DNA of 64,000 nt. Origin: Halichondria panicea (Eukaryota; Porifera; Demospongiae; Suberitida; Halichondriidae). Both the position numbers and the translations under genes were made by a program. Below are positions 34,527-44,685 of this stretch, in pieces (position 1 is the stretch's first letter; each line of letters opens with the position of its first letter). The notes beneath the pieces were generated by a model, which saw nothing but the letters and a program-made list of their open reading frames with translations, was not told where the DNA came from and did no database searches. The stretch is from the NCBI RefSeq assembly GCF_963675165.1, contig NC_087381.1:5023378-5087377 (forward strand), read 5' to 3'.

Positions 34527-34989
34527 GCAATAATTATGCACATAATCTTCAGTGCGGCCTGGAATCGAGGCTAATCCCTTTAATTATTGCTGACTGTGCA
34601 CAATTGTTGCTGAATCAGCATTATTTTTTGCAAAATATTCGTCATGCCTAGCTGGGTGGGGCTCGATCTGCAGCTAACGCTGCTTTGCCTGCAAGTAGTG
34701 CTCACTAGTTAGAGTTGTGCCAAGAAGTATTGTTTAGTGCTGGTAGTTTCAGTACTTAATAAGACACAATTGATCAATTCGGCAGCTCAATTCTCATGAC
34801 CACCACTCCGTCCGCAAGCGAGTTATTCTTTCCAAATTTTTGGGAGCTGTTACTTTCTTACCCATCTGTAGGTCCATGTAGTTAGTTTTGTGCAAAATCG
34901 TCTTGTGCTTCGAGCAATAGCCGCCGATTATAGGTATCTGGCTAAGATAGGTTACTTACTCTATATACGTATTTTTATCTAGGGGGTAC

Positions 34990-36809
34990 CAGGGGCGATC
35001 CTAGGATTCAGTCAATGGAGGTGCTCATTGCGCGCAAAGCGCGCCGCAAAATTTTGACCACGCCCACTTCCGGGGGGGGGGGGGGTCACGCCCCTTTTGT
35101 CGGCAACGCCCACTGTTTTCTAGATGGTGCACAGTACTGACAGTATATACAACCAGTCTGCCCTAAGACCCCAAATGTTGTAAGACAGGAAGTGCTACAA
35201 GTTGCCTCATGAATATATTAATGAGAACAGTTTTTCTTTGTTTCTGATAAAAGTAAAGGTTTTTAGAGCTATCTAAGTTGAAATATGTAATAAGAAGACA
35301 GTTTAACATACGATAAACACTTTAAAATATGAATTTGGGTCAAACTGGCATTAAGTTGTGAAAACGATTGCGGAAAGTTCGAGAGTTTGAGCAAGCTGTT
35401 CACCATCAACGTAGCAAGCTAAAAATTGGTTGATCAAATCAAAAGGATCTAAATTACAACATATTCAAGGTAAATGCCATACAAATGAATGGTGTTTGCA
35501 AAGCAGTTACACAAACTTTGAAATAAATACACAACTTGGCAATAGCATAGAACACTTCATGAATGACTTCAAGCCTTCTAGCTTGCTGCTAAGCATGCAC
35601 ATGCATCAGATGCACTAGTTGATCCTTTAGGCAGTCTCTGGTTCCATTCACATCTGGAGATATGCAGCCATGAGTTCCACCAACCACAGAGATTATTCAG
35701 AATGAGCTAACTTTGAGAGTTTGCGCAAGCTGTTCACACTATCTCAATCCAGTCCAAACTTGCTGAGTCAATACATTCCATATTGAACTAATTTATCTCC
35801 TAGTAACAAGTTCTAGTTCAGTAAATGGTCTGTGTTATGAGCTTTGGAAATTCAGAAAAAAATCACCCTTCACTACAATCTGACAGAGTTGTAGGGTGCA
35901 TCATTATGAATCTCATTATATAATTATGAATTTCATTAAAACAATGTTTTTGTGATGTCATCCTTATGAAACCATTAAAATACTTGTGGTATGTATTTCC
36001 TGTCTTGTCTTGCAAATACTGAAAACTTGGGGGTCTTAGGGCAGACTGAACAGTGCAGTGCAGTACAGTGCCATCAGCAAATCAAGAATGTTTATGACCA
36101 GAAGCTCAATTCGCCTGGGATGGCAAACTCTAGCCAACTCTTCTTAAGGTATGTCAAATGTCAATGCAATCATGTCTAGTCTACTCTGTGTAAATGTAGA
36201 AGTGTAAGTGATGATAAACGTTTGTTCCTTTGCTTGATCTGACGACAGTCTTGATTCTTTTCTTTTCAGGCCACTAAAAGATTGATCAGCTTACCAGGAG
36301 GTGACAGGCAGCGTACAAAGTATGACCACCAGTACCTTGATGTTGAGGAAAAGAGACTTTGTAGTTTACATTGCAAACATTGATTATTATTAATTTATTG
36401 TACATACATGTCATGTAGGCTTAATCATATAATTATACTATACATTCATGTACCTCATGTACCTGGATCCAAGAACCTTGTTGTGCTACAGCAAACCACT
36501 TCCTGCTGCCTAGCCTTATTTATTGAGCCCCTCCCCACTCTTAGCTTTACTAGTTCCCATGGATATCCCAGTAACGATCGAAGTTTTTTAGGCCAGCTTA
36601 GCTAGCTAGCTAGATCTAACTGGTATAAAGTTATTGTAACTATCACTATTAAGCTGTAGATAGCTGCAGTAAGTGTAGCTTCCTTCTAGCCAGCCAGTGA
36701 TGGTTGAACTATCTACTTGAGCTTCTCTGAGTCTGTATAGGGTGCTGGAGCACCAGAGTCTGGATGGGGGTGCTGGAGCACCCTAAGCACCACCCTGTGT
36801 ACGCCCCTG
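34990..36809. mobile_element. 1.8-kb hAT-like element inserted in the left inverted end
   Basis: The ends CAGGGGCGATCCTAGGATT and GTACGCCCCTG are imperfectly inverse. The 5-base duplication GGTAC (34985-34989, 36810-36814) is precise, because the uninterrupted right inverted end of the host element shows the empty site. No transposase is seen. A 14-base G run lies at 35072-35085. A second element is nested at 35154-36048. Confidence 0.82.
35154..36048. mobile_element. 895-base MITE nested in the hAT-like element
   Basis: The ends CAGTCTGCCCTAAGACCCC and GGGGTCTTAGGGCAGACTG are perfect inverses, flanked by AAC on both sides (35151-35153, 36049-36051). It has no gene and is very AT-rich. Confidence 0.85.
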
Positions 36810-37182
36810 GGTACTCTTTTTGTCAACTGTATAGAAAATAAACATTCAGGGGTACACTTTTTGTCAACTGGGTATGGAAAATATATATTCAGGGGTCTTT
36901 TTGTCAACTGGTATAAAAACTGAATATATACACTTATCAGTTTAGGTCCAAAAAATAATTGTTTAGCTACTAAACTAACTACTCTTCTATATAATTTTAA
37001 ATGTACATGAACTGGAAAGAGTACCCTCAAATAAAAAGAGTACCCCCAAATAAATCCTAAGGTTAAAGTACACGTACTTTAACCTCGCTTGTATTTCTAT
37101 TTAAAGCGCAGGCTTAGAGTTTGAGTGTATCCCTACTTACTGTACCAGTACAGCTCGCCAGTATAGTACAGTGCAGTACAGC

Positions 37183-38774
37183 ATGTCTTCATGGTTATTA
37201 GAGTCCCTTAGAACACTTATCGACGATCTGAATACTGGGAACTCTGGTGTAACTACGCTGGAAGCTGCTGATAGTTAAGTTACAAGAGGAGGATAGAGTT
37301 GATGTATAGAGAATTGTTGGCTACAGAGATTGTTGATGGATCTTTGAGTCAAACAGAAACGGAAGCCCTGGGCTATGTAGCACAAGCTTATAAGGAAATG
37401 AGCAATTTGGTGGATATGCTGGTGGCACGACCAGTTGCGAGCAGATTTTGTACACCTACCTTAGCTTCTGGAGAAGTGGGAAGGCCTTCATTTCAGATTC
37501 CCTGTGATCAGCTCAGATACCTTATTGATTACCGTTTCTCTGTACCTCAAATTTCCCAGCTATTAGGTGTGTCAATTCGTACCGTTCGACGTAGAATGTC
37601 TGAGAACAATATGTCCATTCGATCAACTTATTCACAGCTCAGTGATAATCAACTGGAAAAGGTCATAGCTGACATCCAGCGCCTATTTCCTAACTGGAAA
37701 TCGACAAATGTATGGCCATCTCATTTCTCGTGGTATTCGGGTTCAATATCACCGGGTACAAGAGGCACAGTCTCGAGTTGACCCAGAAGGTAGTGTGTTA
37801 AGGAGGCTCCAGATTATCAGGAGGCGATGTTACTCCGTACCTGGTCCTCAACACCTATGGCGTATTGACGGACACCACAAGCTGATCCGGTAAGTTAAAA
37901 GTAGAGGTGTAAAGGTGTAATTACTCGTCAGTTTGGCCTGACATGACATTTCAATCTGCCCTATATAAAAATAGTATTTACATTTTGGTCTCAGGTGGAA
38001 GCTAGTAACCCATGGTGGGATAGATGGTTACAGTCGTTTGATAGTGTTCTTAAAGTGTTCCAGTAACAACAGAGCCGACACTGTTATGCAAGCTTTTTCC
38101 GAAGCTGTCCGCTATTATGGCAATCCAAGTCGTGTGAGGGCTGACCGAGGTGAGGAAAATGTTGTTGTTAGTGACTATATGATTGCCCTACGTGGATCTG
38201 GAAGAGGCAGCTTTATTGGTGGCCAAAGCGTGCATAATCAACGCATTGAAAGGCTTTGGCATGATGTGTTCAGCTCATGTATTATTGTGTACTACTCTCT
38301 TTTTTGTTACAAGGAAGATGTTGGTATATTAAACATAGATGATCCACTACACCTGTTTTCACTGCACTATGTGTATGTGCCTCGCATCAATGAAAGCCTA
38401 AAACAGTTCGAAAGTGCATGGAATAATCACCCATTGTCATCAGTGCGTAATCTGAGCCCAAATCAACTTTGGTTGACTGGCACGCATCCAGATTTCTGTG
38501 ATGATGAGGTAAGCTTACATTACAGTGATGTAAATGATTTACACTCCGTCACGTTGTTTAGGTATCATCACTCGATCAGTTTGGGTTGGATTGGAATGGG
38601 CCACTCACTTCTGACAATGATGGTGTTGTATGCGTGGATCCACCAGACGTACCTCTTACCAGTGACGATTATGAACAGCTGTGTATACAAATTGATCCTG
38701 TTCAGCTAAGTTCTGAGTATGGGTTAGATGTGTATGCAAGAACAATTCAATATGTGTACAGCCACATTAGTTAG
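37183..38774 (+). pseudogene. Integrase-core (DDE) transposase of the HECT-carrying element
   Basis: ATG at 37183 starts SSWLLESLRTLIDDLN; the frame is lost near 37275 and picked up at ~37290. A helix-turn-helix region (FSVPQISQLLGVSIRTVRRR) follows. A short deletion near 37697 shifts the frame. The integrase core has WRIDGHHKLIRW (first Asp), VRADRGEENV (second Asp) and VHNQRIERLW (Glu). Introns 37890-37994 and 38509-38561 have GT/AG borders and restore continuous homology. The last exon ends at TAG 38772-38774 after QYVYSHIS. The catalytic triad is intact; two frameshifts are not. Proteins of this type are common in fish and cnidarian genomes, as I recall. Confidence 0.8.
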
Positions 38775-39038
38775 AGATAGATATTAATTTGTTGTGTGAC
38801 TTTGTGTGTATGAAACTGACAATAATTTATTATGATTATTACACTTATAACCGAGTGGGGGTGAGCTTCCATAACCATTAATTGACATCCTCTTTAATTT
38901 TATGATAATTGCACATAATTATATTCAGTTAACGGCCGGTTAATGAGAAATGAGTGTGATGTGAACACTAGCAGTTGAGCAAAGTAGTGAGTAACGGGTT
39001 GGTTAAATGAGTCAAAAAATGAAAAGTCACTGTTCAGT
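38775..39038. other. Short spacer between convergent transposon genes
   Basis: Shared 3' flank of the integrase-like and HECT genes, AT-rich. No further feature seen. Confidence 0.5.
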
Positions 39039-39549
39039 TCAAAGGATGCCAAGGCCATCGTTTCCTTTTAGGGAGAGTACAAAACACTGCTTGAACTGTT
39101 CATAATTGTCATGCTTGAAGGGAATCCTTATACGAAGGTCACATGTGCTGGCTGTTGCCAGCTGTCCTTCAATGAAAGTCGGCACAGGTCGTGTGGGGAA
39201 TCCAAGAGGAGGCTCTTTTGATGCTCCTGTAAAGAAAATGAGAATGTCTTCGACAGTTACCACCTCTCCATTTTCTGTAATAACGTCTCGATCTGCAATT
39301 AAGGGAAAAAAGATTGCCGCCGTAACCTACAACCTTTGAACAATATCCACTTAATTAAATGTGTATTGTTGAATGTATAAGTCACTTACAAAAATAAATT
39401 AATTATAATTACCTTCACATTCCTCAATGAAGTCTAGTAGAAACATGTTCGAGGATTAGTTTCAGAAGAAAAGTTGGCCTTCAGAAGTGACTACCTTTGT
39501 TGAGAACAGTAGCCTCAGCAACAAACAGAGGTTTCATCAAAAAAGAGTA

Positions 39550-39857
39550 CAGTAGAACCTCGATTATCCGGACACCTTGGTTCCAGAAGCAGGCCGGATA
39601 AGTGAATATGCCGGATAATCGAATAGATAAACCACGCCTTGATCCACCCACTTTATTGATGAACAGCAGTGCCACATGTTGTCTGCGCATGCGCAAAAGA
39701 AAAGCAGGCATGTGTCCATGGTAACAGCTGCAACGCGCATGCGCATTTGAGGGACACGCCCATTTTCTGAATTATGTAATCTGATTAAAAAGAAAACTGC
39801 CAAGCCGGATAATCAAGGTTCCGGATAATCGAGGGCCGGATAATCGAGGTTCTACTG
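39550..39857 (-). mobile_element. 308-base TA-flanked MITE inside a HECT exon
   Basis: Ends CAGTAGAACCTCGATTATCC and inverse complement, TA on both sides (39548-39549, 39858-39859). Same family as 25702-26000, inverted. Removing it and one TA leaves the surrounding HECT reading frame continuous. Confidence 0.93.
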
Positions 39858-42315
39858 TACTTTATTATTGTTTCCAGAACACTCTGGTTTTGTAAACCCT
39901 CACACAGCTGATCCATTTCTGCCTTCGTCTTAATGAGAGTGTGATAGTCCCGTAAGGTTTTCTTCAAGTGGTCTTTATCGTTAACAGTCAGCAAACATAA
40001 TGCCTTACGGAATCCAGTTTCACACACAAGGGAATCGTTAGCCTTGTCTGGATTGTCGTCATCAAATAGAAATGTAAGGTCTTCGTCTTTGTCTGCTTTC
40101 TCAATCTAAAGATAAAAGTGCTTGTACTTACTTACTATAAATATACAACCTTACCTGCTCTAGCAAAACCCGAACTTCTGAATCTGCAACTTTCTTGTCA
40201 TTAACCACTTGTCCAATATACTGACCGGTAGCAATATAATTGTAGACGGAAGGGTGCAGCACTGGTAAGCCCGAACCACCTTGCACAATACACATGGCAA
40301 TCAACATTCCAATAGCTTTAAAGTCACCCCGCTATAAAAAAAGACAACATAAACATAAAATTGTATGACTAACATAGTGGACACATGACACCCGCCTCGA
40401 TTTAACTATAATCATAGGCACAGTGCTACGAGGACTAACCTGCAGAGCTGGTACATTCTTGTCTAGGAAACATTCACCGCTATCATTGGACACACAGTAA
40501 GAAGAAGAAACACCACTGGCAAACAGACGCCAGAATTCTCTAGAAGGACCACCGGTATCAACACCCTCTTCACCAACAAAGTGAACCTGTGAAAGTATTA
40601 TAGAAATGTTAATGTTCAACACCAACCCAAGTATCTACACTATATACTTGTACTGCAACAACATACCCGAAGTAGGTTAGTAGAATTGAATCGCTTCTTT
40701 TCAGCTGCTCTCACACCATCAACAACCACATGACTCCTCCTTACATCTAAGCTACAACGAGGGGTCATATCCCACTCCTCATCAGTACTCGGAAGCTTGA
40801 TACCATTTTTTTGCTGCAACATCACCACTACATCCTGCAGTGTGTCAACTTCTTCCTCCACGCTACACACAATAATTATATTGTACATAATATGCCAAAA
40901 AATCACGTCTAACACATACCCTTCTACAGCATCTTGCAGGCTTCTTGAAATTGCTTCTGACACATCACTTTCAAATGTTAAATCAACACTTGATGTAGCA
41001 GTTGAGATAGCCTAAAACACACATCAGTCACAGTAAGCCAGTCACATCGTATATGTAACAAGACAATAACAAATTACCCCTTGGCATGGCGTTATTGGAG
41101 AAAATGGGGGAGCAGTTGGAGAAGTAGGGGACCGTGTGCAGCCACCATCTTCTAGGAATTCCTCCATCTCAGAAGGAATGTAATCCCCACTTCGTAAATA
41201 CTCCGAACACTCACCTGCTTCAGGTGGGGAGCACTTGTTATCCCTATATACACAACAGTTGTTGGTACAGTTTTAACGCACAATCTAATAAATTACCTGA
41301 CACAAGCTTTGATGTGGCTTCTCATCAGGTGCATTGGTACTGACTTCTCGCAGTGCATACACTTTTCAACAGGAGCTATTCCCTACAATAAACAATGCCC
41401 AGTAAACAATAACACAAAAGTCACACAACTAAATAGCATACCAAGTCATCTTTGTCCACTAGTGGATCCAATGACAGGTCTTTCTGAATCGGCCTAACAA
41501 ACACTTTAGCCTGGCCAACAATACGACGCAGATACTCTGCAGTGTATCCGTCAGATGGTGGGCTAATGACAAATAGCTCTCGATTGTTGTGTTGCTGGGT
41601 GCGTAGTAACTCGTAGCCACCAGCGTTGCGTAACTTTGGAAATGCACTGGTGATTTCATCATGAAATTCGAAAGGCTCTCCAAAGTCAAGGAATGGTATC
41701 TTTTTCGGACCTAGACCTGCCCTAATTAGATCAATTTTCTCCATTGACGAAGGTGGAGTCAACTGGCCACAACTAGCTAAACAGATGAACTCGTGCTCCC
41801 AAAGGCTAAGTTTCACTTTTTTCGACTTTTTGGGCCCTTTTCCTTTTCTTTGCATCCAGGATGGCCGTTGCACTTGCGCAGTGTTACGACCAAGCATTTG
41901 CGAGCGAGGTTGCATCATCTGCTGATGCTGGAGAGGTTGCACACCACGATTAGCAGGTTGCATCATCTGCTGGAGAGGTTGCAGACCACTCACTTGATTA
42001 GCAGGTTGCATCATCTGCTGGAGAGGTTGAACACCACTAGCAGGTTGCATCATCTGCTGGAGAGGTTGAACACCACTCGGTGCTTGATTAGCAGGTTGCA
42101 TCATCAGCTGGAGAGGTTGCAGGCCACTCCTTTCAGGTTGCATCATCTGCTGACGCTGGACACCCCTTCCTGCATATCAAAAACATAGCATGTGAATTCC
42201 CAAAGTGATTATATTAAGCTCTCACTTATGAGAGTTTTATTCTGCTGCATACTCTATAAGGTTAGGGGTACTTCCAAAGCTCTTACGACATTAATTTTTA
42301 GACCCCCCCCCCCTT

Positions 42316-42596
42316 AGTCTCGCGGACCCAGACCCTGAATAAGGGTCTGGCCAATTTCACCGTACAGAGTTGTGTTGACCGCGCCACAAATATTGTGGCG
42401 CTCTAAGTGGCTGATAAGTGTTTGTAGTAAGTTGTGAAACCGCACAGCTGCACCGCTAGCTAAAGTAGATTTGGCAAATCTAATTATGTGGTTTCACACA
42501 TCCGTCTCCACCCACTAACCAATTATCAATGTAAACAGCCACTTAGGCTCATGTGTAATTTGCCAGACGATAATATATCGGCTGGTCCACGAGACT
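42316..42596. mobile_element. MITE in the first HECT intron
   Basis: Ends AGTCTCGCGGACCCAGACC and GGCTGGTCCACGAGACT are imperfect inverses. Internal inverted pairs include AGCCACTTAG/CTAAGTGGCT and CGCCACAAATATTGTGGCG. C runs flank it on both sides. Confidence 0.7.
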
Positions 42597-42916
42597 ACCC
42601 CCCCCTCTTAACATCACAAGTTTTGACACACTAGTTATTGAATGGTCACAGACCAATAGTTAAATCCCTCTAGCTCTAACTCTTCGTAATATAAATGATG
42701 ATACTATAAACGTAATCACACCTGCACTTCTTTCAGGAAGTCTTGTAAGAGCCTGCCTCAAGAAGTTTCTCGTAGCTTTCACTCCATCTGTATTATATGG
42801 ATAACCGTTTGGGTTTCCAGTAGCCATGTCACACTGCTAACAGAAGACTAACAGATAACAGTATCTTTGGTCTACGACTGAGCCACGTGTTGAAGCTTAT
42901 TGCGCATGTGCACTAA

Positions 42917-43246
42917 AGGTTAAAGTACATGTACTTTAACCTTAGGATTTATTTGGGGGTACTCTTTTTATTTGGGGGTACTCTTTTTATTTGAGGGTAC
43001 TCTTTCCAGTTCAGGTATATACATTTAAAATTATATAGAAGACAGTAGTTAGTTTTGTAGCTAAACAATTATTTTTTGGACCTAAACTGATAAGTGTATA
43101 TATTCAGTTTTTATACCAGTTGACAAAAAGACCCCTGAATATATATTTTCCATACCCCAGTTGACAAAAAGTGTACCCCTGAATGTTTATTTTCTATATA
43201 TACCAGTTGACAAAAAGAGTACCCCCTAGATACAAATACGTATATA
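42917..43246. repeat. Right inverted end of the integrase/HECT element
   Basis: Uninterrupted inverse complement of 34962-34989 plus 36810-37086. It contains three copies of GGGTACTCTTTTTATTTG-like motifs near the inner edge and three copies of CAGTTGACAAAAAG outward. Probably holds the HECT promoter, since the start codon is 90 bases inside. Confidence 0.88.
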
Positions 43247-43249
43247 CTC

Positions 43250-43741
43250 TAATTTTGGCACTAATATTGCGCCATAAGGTAGCCTCTCCTTTTTCTTTTT
43301 TCTGTTCTTTATCACAATAAGACATGATAATGAGAGACATAATATAATGTAGCTGAACAGAAATTAATATTAAAAATTATATATATATCTTGTTCTTGTC
43401 TTCTTTGTCTTTGAATTGTGACCTTTTGAAGCATGATACTAGCTTATTAAATTGTGCATGAGAACAGTATGATACAGGCTGAATACAGGCCGTTTGTACG
43501 GGCTGTATGTGAACGGCCTGTTTAGTAGTGTCTACCCAACGGTCCCGTATCAGGATGTGGTAAACGTCCTGTAACGGACATGTAACGGACCTGACACGCC
43601 CCGTGGATTTTTGGCTGTGTAAAATACTGTTTTAATTAACGTTCAATGAGATAAAATACGGTAAATAATAAATTAATTGTCCACCCACGCGCCAACAGTA
43701 AATACCAGGCCCACTATTCAAGGGGCTGGAGTCGAGGCTAG
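43250..43741. other. Spacer without a gene
   Basis: AT-rich, with short GC-richer repeats of the type CGGCCTGTTTAG / ACAGGCCGTTTG at 43470-43540. A short solo AGCCTCGA-type end occurs at 43725-43740. No gene seen. Confidence 0.5.
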
Positions 43742-44685
43742 AGTCACTTTTCTTGGTTCAGATGTCAAAATTCAGAGGAGGTACGACATAGGTTGACCTT
43801 TTGCTAATGAGTTACTCCCGTATTGCATTCCTGCAGCATGACAGGATGTCACGCCCACATTTACCTAGAGGAGGTGTGGCCTCGCGTCATATTTTATCAT
43901 CAAGTTTCACGGAGGAATTGTGAGTGTACGGAGAAAGAAGAGAATATACGGAAGCACAACACCAAAACTTGCTCTCCTAGCTAGCTAAAAGACTACAAAC
44001 GATCATAGTACTCCACAGTAGTTATAAATAATGCCTAACTATATCCTGTGACATAAGAAAATGAATAGCATAGTCGTAGTTGAAGAAATGAGCTATAAAC
44101 TTACAGTGTAAGAGTTTGTTGCGCTTTCTATGGCTACTGTGTTAATGTAATACTTATAGTAGATACTAAGATTGATAAACTAGTAGAAAATGCCTCTTGG
44201 AGAGACTCCAGAAGAGATAAACACAAAGAACAGTAAAATAGCGCTGACGGTGCATAAAATACTTGTTGAGTCAACACAAATATCATGTGGGCGTGACATC
44301 CTGTCATGCTGCAGGAATGCAATACGGGAGTAACTCATTAGCAAAAGGTCAACCTATGTCGTACCTCCTCTGGTCAAAATTTGACATCTCCAATCAGATT
44401 CGCAAGAATGCAATTAAACTGTCACATGATTCCACTTCACAGAGGAGGTTGATAGTACTTGACCTTTGTCATTTTTAAAACTATGCCAGTAGGCAATGGC
44501 TAACTTAAATTCCTGTATACATCAACTAAAAATGTTATTTCAAGCACAGAGAATCTTTCAAATCTCACTTCAAATCTCACTAAATCTGTATAGGAGTAGA
44601 GATAATAGCCAGCCAGTTTTAGCATGTCACCACGCCCATTTCCGACACGCCCACTTTTGACTGTCTGAAAACCAAGAAAGTGACT
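43742..44685. mobile_element. Fold-back element with ~100-base inverted arms
   Basis: Outer ends AGTCACTTTTCTTGGTTCAG / CTGAAAACCAAGAAAGTGACT. Inner arms 43768-43862 and 44282-44378 share GAGGAGGTACGACATAGGTT, GACCTTTTGCTAATGAGTTA and CATGACAGGATGTCACGCCC. The core holds no gene. Confidence 0.75.

Follow-up and report, generated by a model that had tools for sequence, protein, structure and literature searches.

A 64,000-nucleotide stretch of the genome of the sponge Halichondria panicea (contig NC_087381.1, positions 5,023,378 to 5,087,377; hereafter the window) contains a decayed copy of a DNA transposon in which an integrase-type transposase gene and a HECT ubiquitin ligase gene converge between terminal inverted repeats (TIRs). 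The same pair recurs in the same orientation through the sponge genome, in copies with defined ends and target duplications, and the catalytic TC motif of the ligase is conserved. We give a probability of roughly 60% to the reading that this is a cut-and-paste transposon of the IS3EU/GingerRoot type with two genes of its own, whose ligase would act in trans against a host factor and so raise transposition.

Integrase and HECT genes are paired across the sponge genome

The whole sponge genome (131 Mb) was searched with Pfam profiles. The integrase profile, rva_4, gave 156 matches, of which 150 were used; 150 of 234 candidates were scored, so that rva_4 counts are lower bounds. The HECT profile gave 95 exon matches. 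After merging, there were at least 114 loci for the integrase and 54 for HECT. Of these 54, 28 have an rva_4 locus no more than 2.2 kb away, where 0.59 would be expected by chance within 6 kb, and all 28 are convergent to it. Most of the other 26, which lie away from rva_4, are presumably genes of the host, and at least one (C12:4330670, L099) is an orphan near-copy of a transposon HECT.

Because the HECT gene of the window was missing from the Pfam list, the search was repeated with two transposon HECT proteins added as queries. Of the 66 integrase loci that score at least 200 bits (strong loci), 49 then had a HECT-like gene convergent to them within 6 kb, 5 had a HECT gene on the same strand only, and 12 had none. 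For all 114 integrase loci the corresponding figures were 67, 7, and 40, and 67 of 112 merged HECT loci were convergent to an integrase locus, at distances of 381 to 2188 bases. Many loci are near-identical copies of each other. Of the 34 places with a conserved domain from the front of the ligase, 26 are within 7 kb of rva_4, and one further place (C1:9155860) is the C1 copy of the window family, which has lost most of its integrase.

Since most strong transposase matches in the genome face a ligase gene, the element seems to carry the ligase as a regular component. The initial annotation had regarded the ligase as a transposon gene rather than a captured bystander and had proposed co-occurrence with the integrase as the check; in this one genome the pairing is far above chance, and from these sequence comparisons it follows that the ligase is a gene of the transposon.

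Some observations weigh against this conclusion or qualify it. No HECT was detected at the 12 strong loci mentioned above with the two added queries; a third query supplied a HECT gene to 2 of them (C15:3186879 and C8:4029621, table read by hand), and at another, C14:2657228, no HECT-like frame was seen in the 2.5 kb read downstream. Two elements, L074 and L076, share the ends of their relatives but lack the ligase's front half, with an identical deletion junction in both. They occupy different genomic sites and are an internally deleted subfamily, probably mobilized in trans.

Other arrangements were also seen. In three of the five same-strand cases (C4:2654326, C4:3499349, and C15:5971502), HECT lies 2.2 to 3.0 kb downstream of the integrase; these are probably one lineage, as their scores look equal, and the remaining two are apparently neighbors' genes. 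Head-to-head units (integrase+, HECT-, HECT+, integrase-) occur at C1:8835049-8843312, C13:4273596-4281265, C9:2874335-2881420, C8:780886-796887, and C16:4429680-4446657. In several of them the integrase cores at the two ends score equally, and these units may be composite elements whose very long inverted repeats contain the integrase. The integrase, which is of eukaryotic type, is also encoded on three contigs (L108 to L110) filed in a symbiont bin (Cycloclasticus) from a Poecilosclerida sponge. These contigs end, or contain another element, where HECT could lie, and are likely host contamination of the bin.

Superfamily placement

By its ends, its target duplications, and its transposase core, the element is placed in the IS3EU/GingerRoot type. 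The DDE core is related to IS3/IS481: rva_4 matches in the window at E 3.9e-67, and the L073 transposase matched the NCBIfam models IS481 (2.8e-13) and IS3 (2.4e-6), both below the equivalog cut-offs. TA..TA termini (TATGGCGC..GCGCCATA) are present in two other copies of the window family, at C1:9154.7k-9161.1k and C5:4155.9k-4168.9k (the C1 and C5 copies), and at the right end only of the window copy. A second family (L069, L073, L074, and L076) has the ends TATGGAACGCC..GGCGTTCCATA. Exact 6-bp target duplications flank four of six copies (L069, CTAGTC; L073, TACATC; L074, GGAGGT; C5 copy, CGCTAT); the C1 copy has one of 7 bp (TTTGAAT), that of L076 is not exact, and the window copy, its left end gone, is outside the count.

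Published IS3EU elements are described with TA..TA ends and target duplications that are usually 6 bp (PMC10045372). The elements found here, with TATGG..CCATA termini, mostly 6-bp duplications, and an IS3/IS481-like transposase, resemble that description, and differ from it in the ligase: the words "HECT" and "ubiquitin" are missing from the main text of that paper. Fungal IS3EU elements, as described in PMC12730594, have TAYGG..CCRTA ends and 6-bp duplications (in those from rusts) and carry a TET/JBP dioxygenase, proposed to help the element escape host silencing, together with an alpha-kinase in opposite orientation to the transposase. The likeness lies in similar ends, 6-bp duplications, and an accessory gene opposite to the transposase; the difference lies in the accessory enzymes, and neither "HECT" nor "ubiquitin" occurs in that text. 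In the sponge genome, eight alpha-kinase matches lie far from the listed rva_4 loci (compared by eye). The open literature searched, which did not extend to Repbase notes, holds no paper pairing IS3EU with HECT, nor one with the further full combinations looked for.

The window copy and its insertions

The initial annotation had described inverted ends of about 320 bases. Such ends are present, with different borders. The right TIR spans approximately 42917 to 43276 (360 bases); alignments of the C1 and C5 copies both reach window position 43276/43277, ending GCGCCATA, so that the right end lies 27 bases beyond the one first assigned. The left TIR is split into two plus-strand pieces, an outer fragment at 34962 to 34989 (96% complementary to 43219 to 43246) and an inner part at 36809 to 37085 that pairs with 42917 to 43198 in blocks of 96 to 100%. 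The true ends, TATGGCGCAATATTAG..TTGCGCCATA, are seen in the C1 and C5 copies, which on the left extend outward to TATGGCGCAATATTAG; the outermost ~30 bases there are missing from the window copy, which has therefore lost one end. The terminal 18-mer, with up to three mismatches allowed, occurs once in the 64-kb window, at the right end.

Both convergent genes that had been described were recovered. The integrase is on the plus strand, from ~37183 to 38774. Its first coding part (37183 to 37890) comprises a helix-turn-helix-like (HTH-like) region, with weak Pfam matches of the HTH type, and the first catalytic Asp; its second (37975 to 38774) holds the rva_4 core (PF24764) with the second Asp and the Glu, and a C-terminal part read at 38562 to 38771. 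The frame is broken near 37271 and near 37700, both before the core. The C5 copy reads through there as a single open frame and is broken later, inside the core. The C1 copy lacks the middle of its integrase and has there instead a stretch that reads like another transposase, which by eye we take to be Merlin/IS1595-like; its HECT gene is retained, with a shift in one exon.

The HECT gene is on the minus strand, from 42827 to ~39042. Exon 1 (42722 to 42827) opens with a start codon at 42827 to 42825, separated from the right TIR by 89 bases (90 had been given). Exon 2 (41442 to 42169) contains the previously noted PLQQMMQPA repeats (41907 to 42160) and the conserved front domain (A4) ending VFVRPIQKDL, for which a ubiquitin-like (beta-grasp) fold is predicted in a modelled relative. 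The zinc finger, also noted before, lies at 41296 to 41382 (CMHC..HIKAC) and has the form C-x2-C-x11-H-x3-C; its match to zf_C2HC_14 (E 0.0021) is below the cut-off of that profile. A linker at 40643 to 41011 includes a UIM-like segment, SDVSEAISRSLQDA, recognized by eye and not reported by Pfam.

Then follow the N-lobe open stretches at 40131 to 40634 (RGDFKAIGML.. and VHFVGEEGVDTGGPSREFW..), judged by eye to be homologous to HECT in L069 and L070; a further N-lobe stretch at 39858 to 40105 (borders approximate), which in the C1 and C5 copies joins LMKPLFV without a break; stretches that lie between the two lobes, at 39423 to 39549 (borders approximate), one of them with a short deletion relative to both of these copies; and the C-lobe at 39042 to 39326, whose reading ends ATASTC..GNDGLGIL and so carries the TC reported at the outset. 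Taken alone, the window HECT is a weak match (Pfam E 0.087, below cut-off), whereas its relatives L069 (E 7.1e-12), L070 (E 1.8e-9), and L079 exceed the curated cut-off.

The decay of the window copy had gone unnoticed in the initial annotation. A 0.3-kb miniature inverted-repeat transposable element (MITE) at 39550 to 39857, with TA on both sides and ends that we take to be pogo/Tigger-like, interrupts a HECT coding exon that is uninterrupted in the C1 and C5 copies. The MITE is abundant, and the copies listed (the best 40 of 817 candidates scored) are 98 to 99% identical, so that it has been active recently. The exon that follows has a short deletion relative to both copies. With the MITE in one coding exon and a deletion in the next, the ligase of the window copy is dead, as is its integrase.

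The left TIR is interrupted by a 1.82-kb insertion (34990 to 36808) with ends CAGGGGCG..CGCCCCTG and GGTAC on both sides, which is foreign to the element and is missing at the corresponding place in the C1 and C5 copies. Nested in it is a 0.9-kb unit (35154 to 36048) with inverted ends CAGTCTGCCCTAAGACCCCAAA. The unit has matches at ~39 other places (among the best 40 of 156 candidates scored), many at 98 to 100%, and since most of these begin at or near 35154 it is a separate, recently spread MITE. Just outside the element, a perfect 88-base inverted repeat pair (43773 to 43860 and 44285 to 44372, 424 bases apart) is possibly a small inverted-repeat element.

Conservation and possible role of the ligase

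The catalytic Cys, which the initial annotation had singled out for examination, was followed in an alignment of C-lobes (A1) with 12 rows drawn from 20 fetched C-lobes plus the window, L069, L070, and L079. The alignment excludes near-identical copies, L099 (itself nearly identical to the L069 family), and two decayed loci, L084 and L087. Mean column identity is 35%, and the T and C of the motif are invariant in all 12 families. Nineteen of the 20 fetched loci have the motif, the exception being L087, and the A1 profile puts TC onto the TC of a solved HECT C-lobe. Between families, dN is 0.31 to 0.60 and dS is 1.3 to 2.9 in four of seven pairs and saturated (not computable) in three; within the window family, differences are too few for a dN/dS judgement. 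Every HECT gene read through (window, C1, C5, L069, L070, and L073) has a defect, and stops are private where checked: the TGA of L069 is absent in L073 and the TAA of L070 is absent in L075.

Structure prediction supports a bilobal HECT fold with N- and C-lobe, as in UBR5, HUWE1, AREL1, and E6AP, which likewise have TC in the C-lobe. Identity to these ligases is 12 to 19% among the fold matches listed, and the element ligase differs from them in its front end, a beta-grasp domain and a C2HC finger, and in being transposon encoded. Members of the G2E3 family have PHD/RING-like fingers in front of HECT, and G2E3-like genes, with a HECT domain, are present in many copies in aquatic animals; the initial annotation suggested that the transposon ligase may account for them. 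No PHD match was listed for the pieces of the element ligase that were scanned, in unspliced form.

We propose that transcription of the ligase would start from a promoter within or close to the right TIR and that the protein would act in trans. Action in trans is suggested by L074 and L076, two elements at different sites that have one 5'-half deletion in common. Its front domains may bind a host (or ubiquitylated) protein, which would then be modified or destroyed. The likeliest target would be a silencing factor acting on the element, or one that determines what becomes of the DNA breaks at donor and target sites, and element copies in the same nucleus would transpose more.

The strongest competitor, which we nevertheless consider rather unlikely, is a self-regulatory ligase that ubiquitylates the element's own integrase or integration complex, limiting copy number or dismantling the complex after strand transfer. 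The two genes are usually linked and diverge together, as interacting proteins would (Mantel r 0.52, p 0.0014 over pairwise distances of 12 families, with 5 of the 12 integrase sequences being fragments; p 0.0001 without the most diverged family; p 0.020 and 0.12 when restricted to 7 and 6 families whose integrase sequence is longer), and convergent genes 0.4 to 2.2 kb apart permit joint regulation. Linkage alone, however, yields the same correlation, deletion derivatives without the full ligase occur at different sites, and a dedicated multi-exon gene for self-limitation would seem of little benefit to a selfish element. We prefer a host-directed role, against silencing or repair factors, over self-regulation: protein targeting is a fitting task for a front end made of a ubiquitin-like domain and a finger, and the fungal IS3EU dioxygenase has been proposed to counter silencing (PMC12730594).

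It is less probable still that the HECT-fold protein has no enzymatic use and serves as a scaffold or as a DNA- or ubiquitin-binding part of the transposition machinery. The strong divergence of the C-lobes, the weak Pfam match in some families (E 0.087 in the window), and the lack of TC in L087 would suit such a part; the invariance of T and C amid drift elsewhere, and the retention of both lobes in the predicted fold, argue against it. That a host HECT gene was captured or overrun, the pairing being accidental, is very improbable: some integrase loci lack HECT and 26 HECT loci are unpaired, but all 12 families compared have the same convergent order (read directly in the window, L069, L070, and L079 and taken from coordinates in the other eight), copies have both genes in common within their ends, and the front domain is found mostly in elements.

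A broader form of the host-directed reading, which we hold tentatively and at somewhat less than even odds, is that an IS3EU radiation has kept a HECT ligase with a ubiquitin-like targeting domain through deep divergence for counter-defence in trans, where it would remove or reprogram a host silencing or repair factor, a proteolytic counterpart of the fungal IS3EU TET gene. Few transposons are known to carry enzymes directed against host control. A ubiquitin ligase as a standard transposon component would add protein modification or degradation to these anti-host activities, and its substrate would offer a concrete lead to what the element is up against. The finding also predicts that many annotated animal HECT genes are transposon genes rather than host genes, in which case counts of gene family expansion would change.

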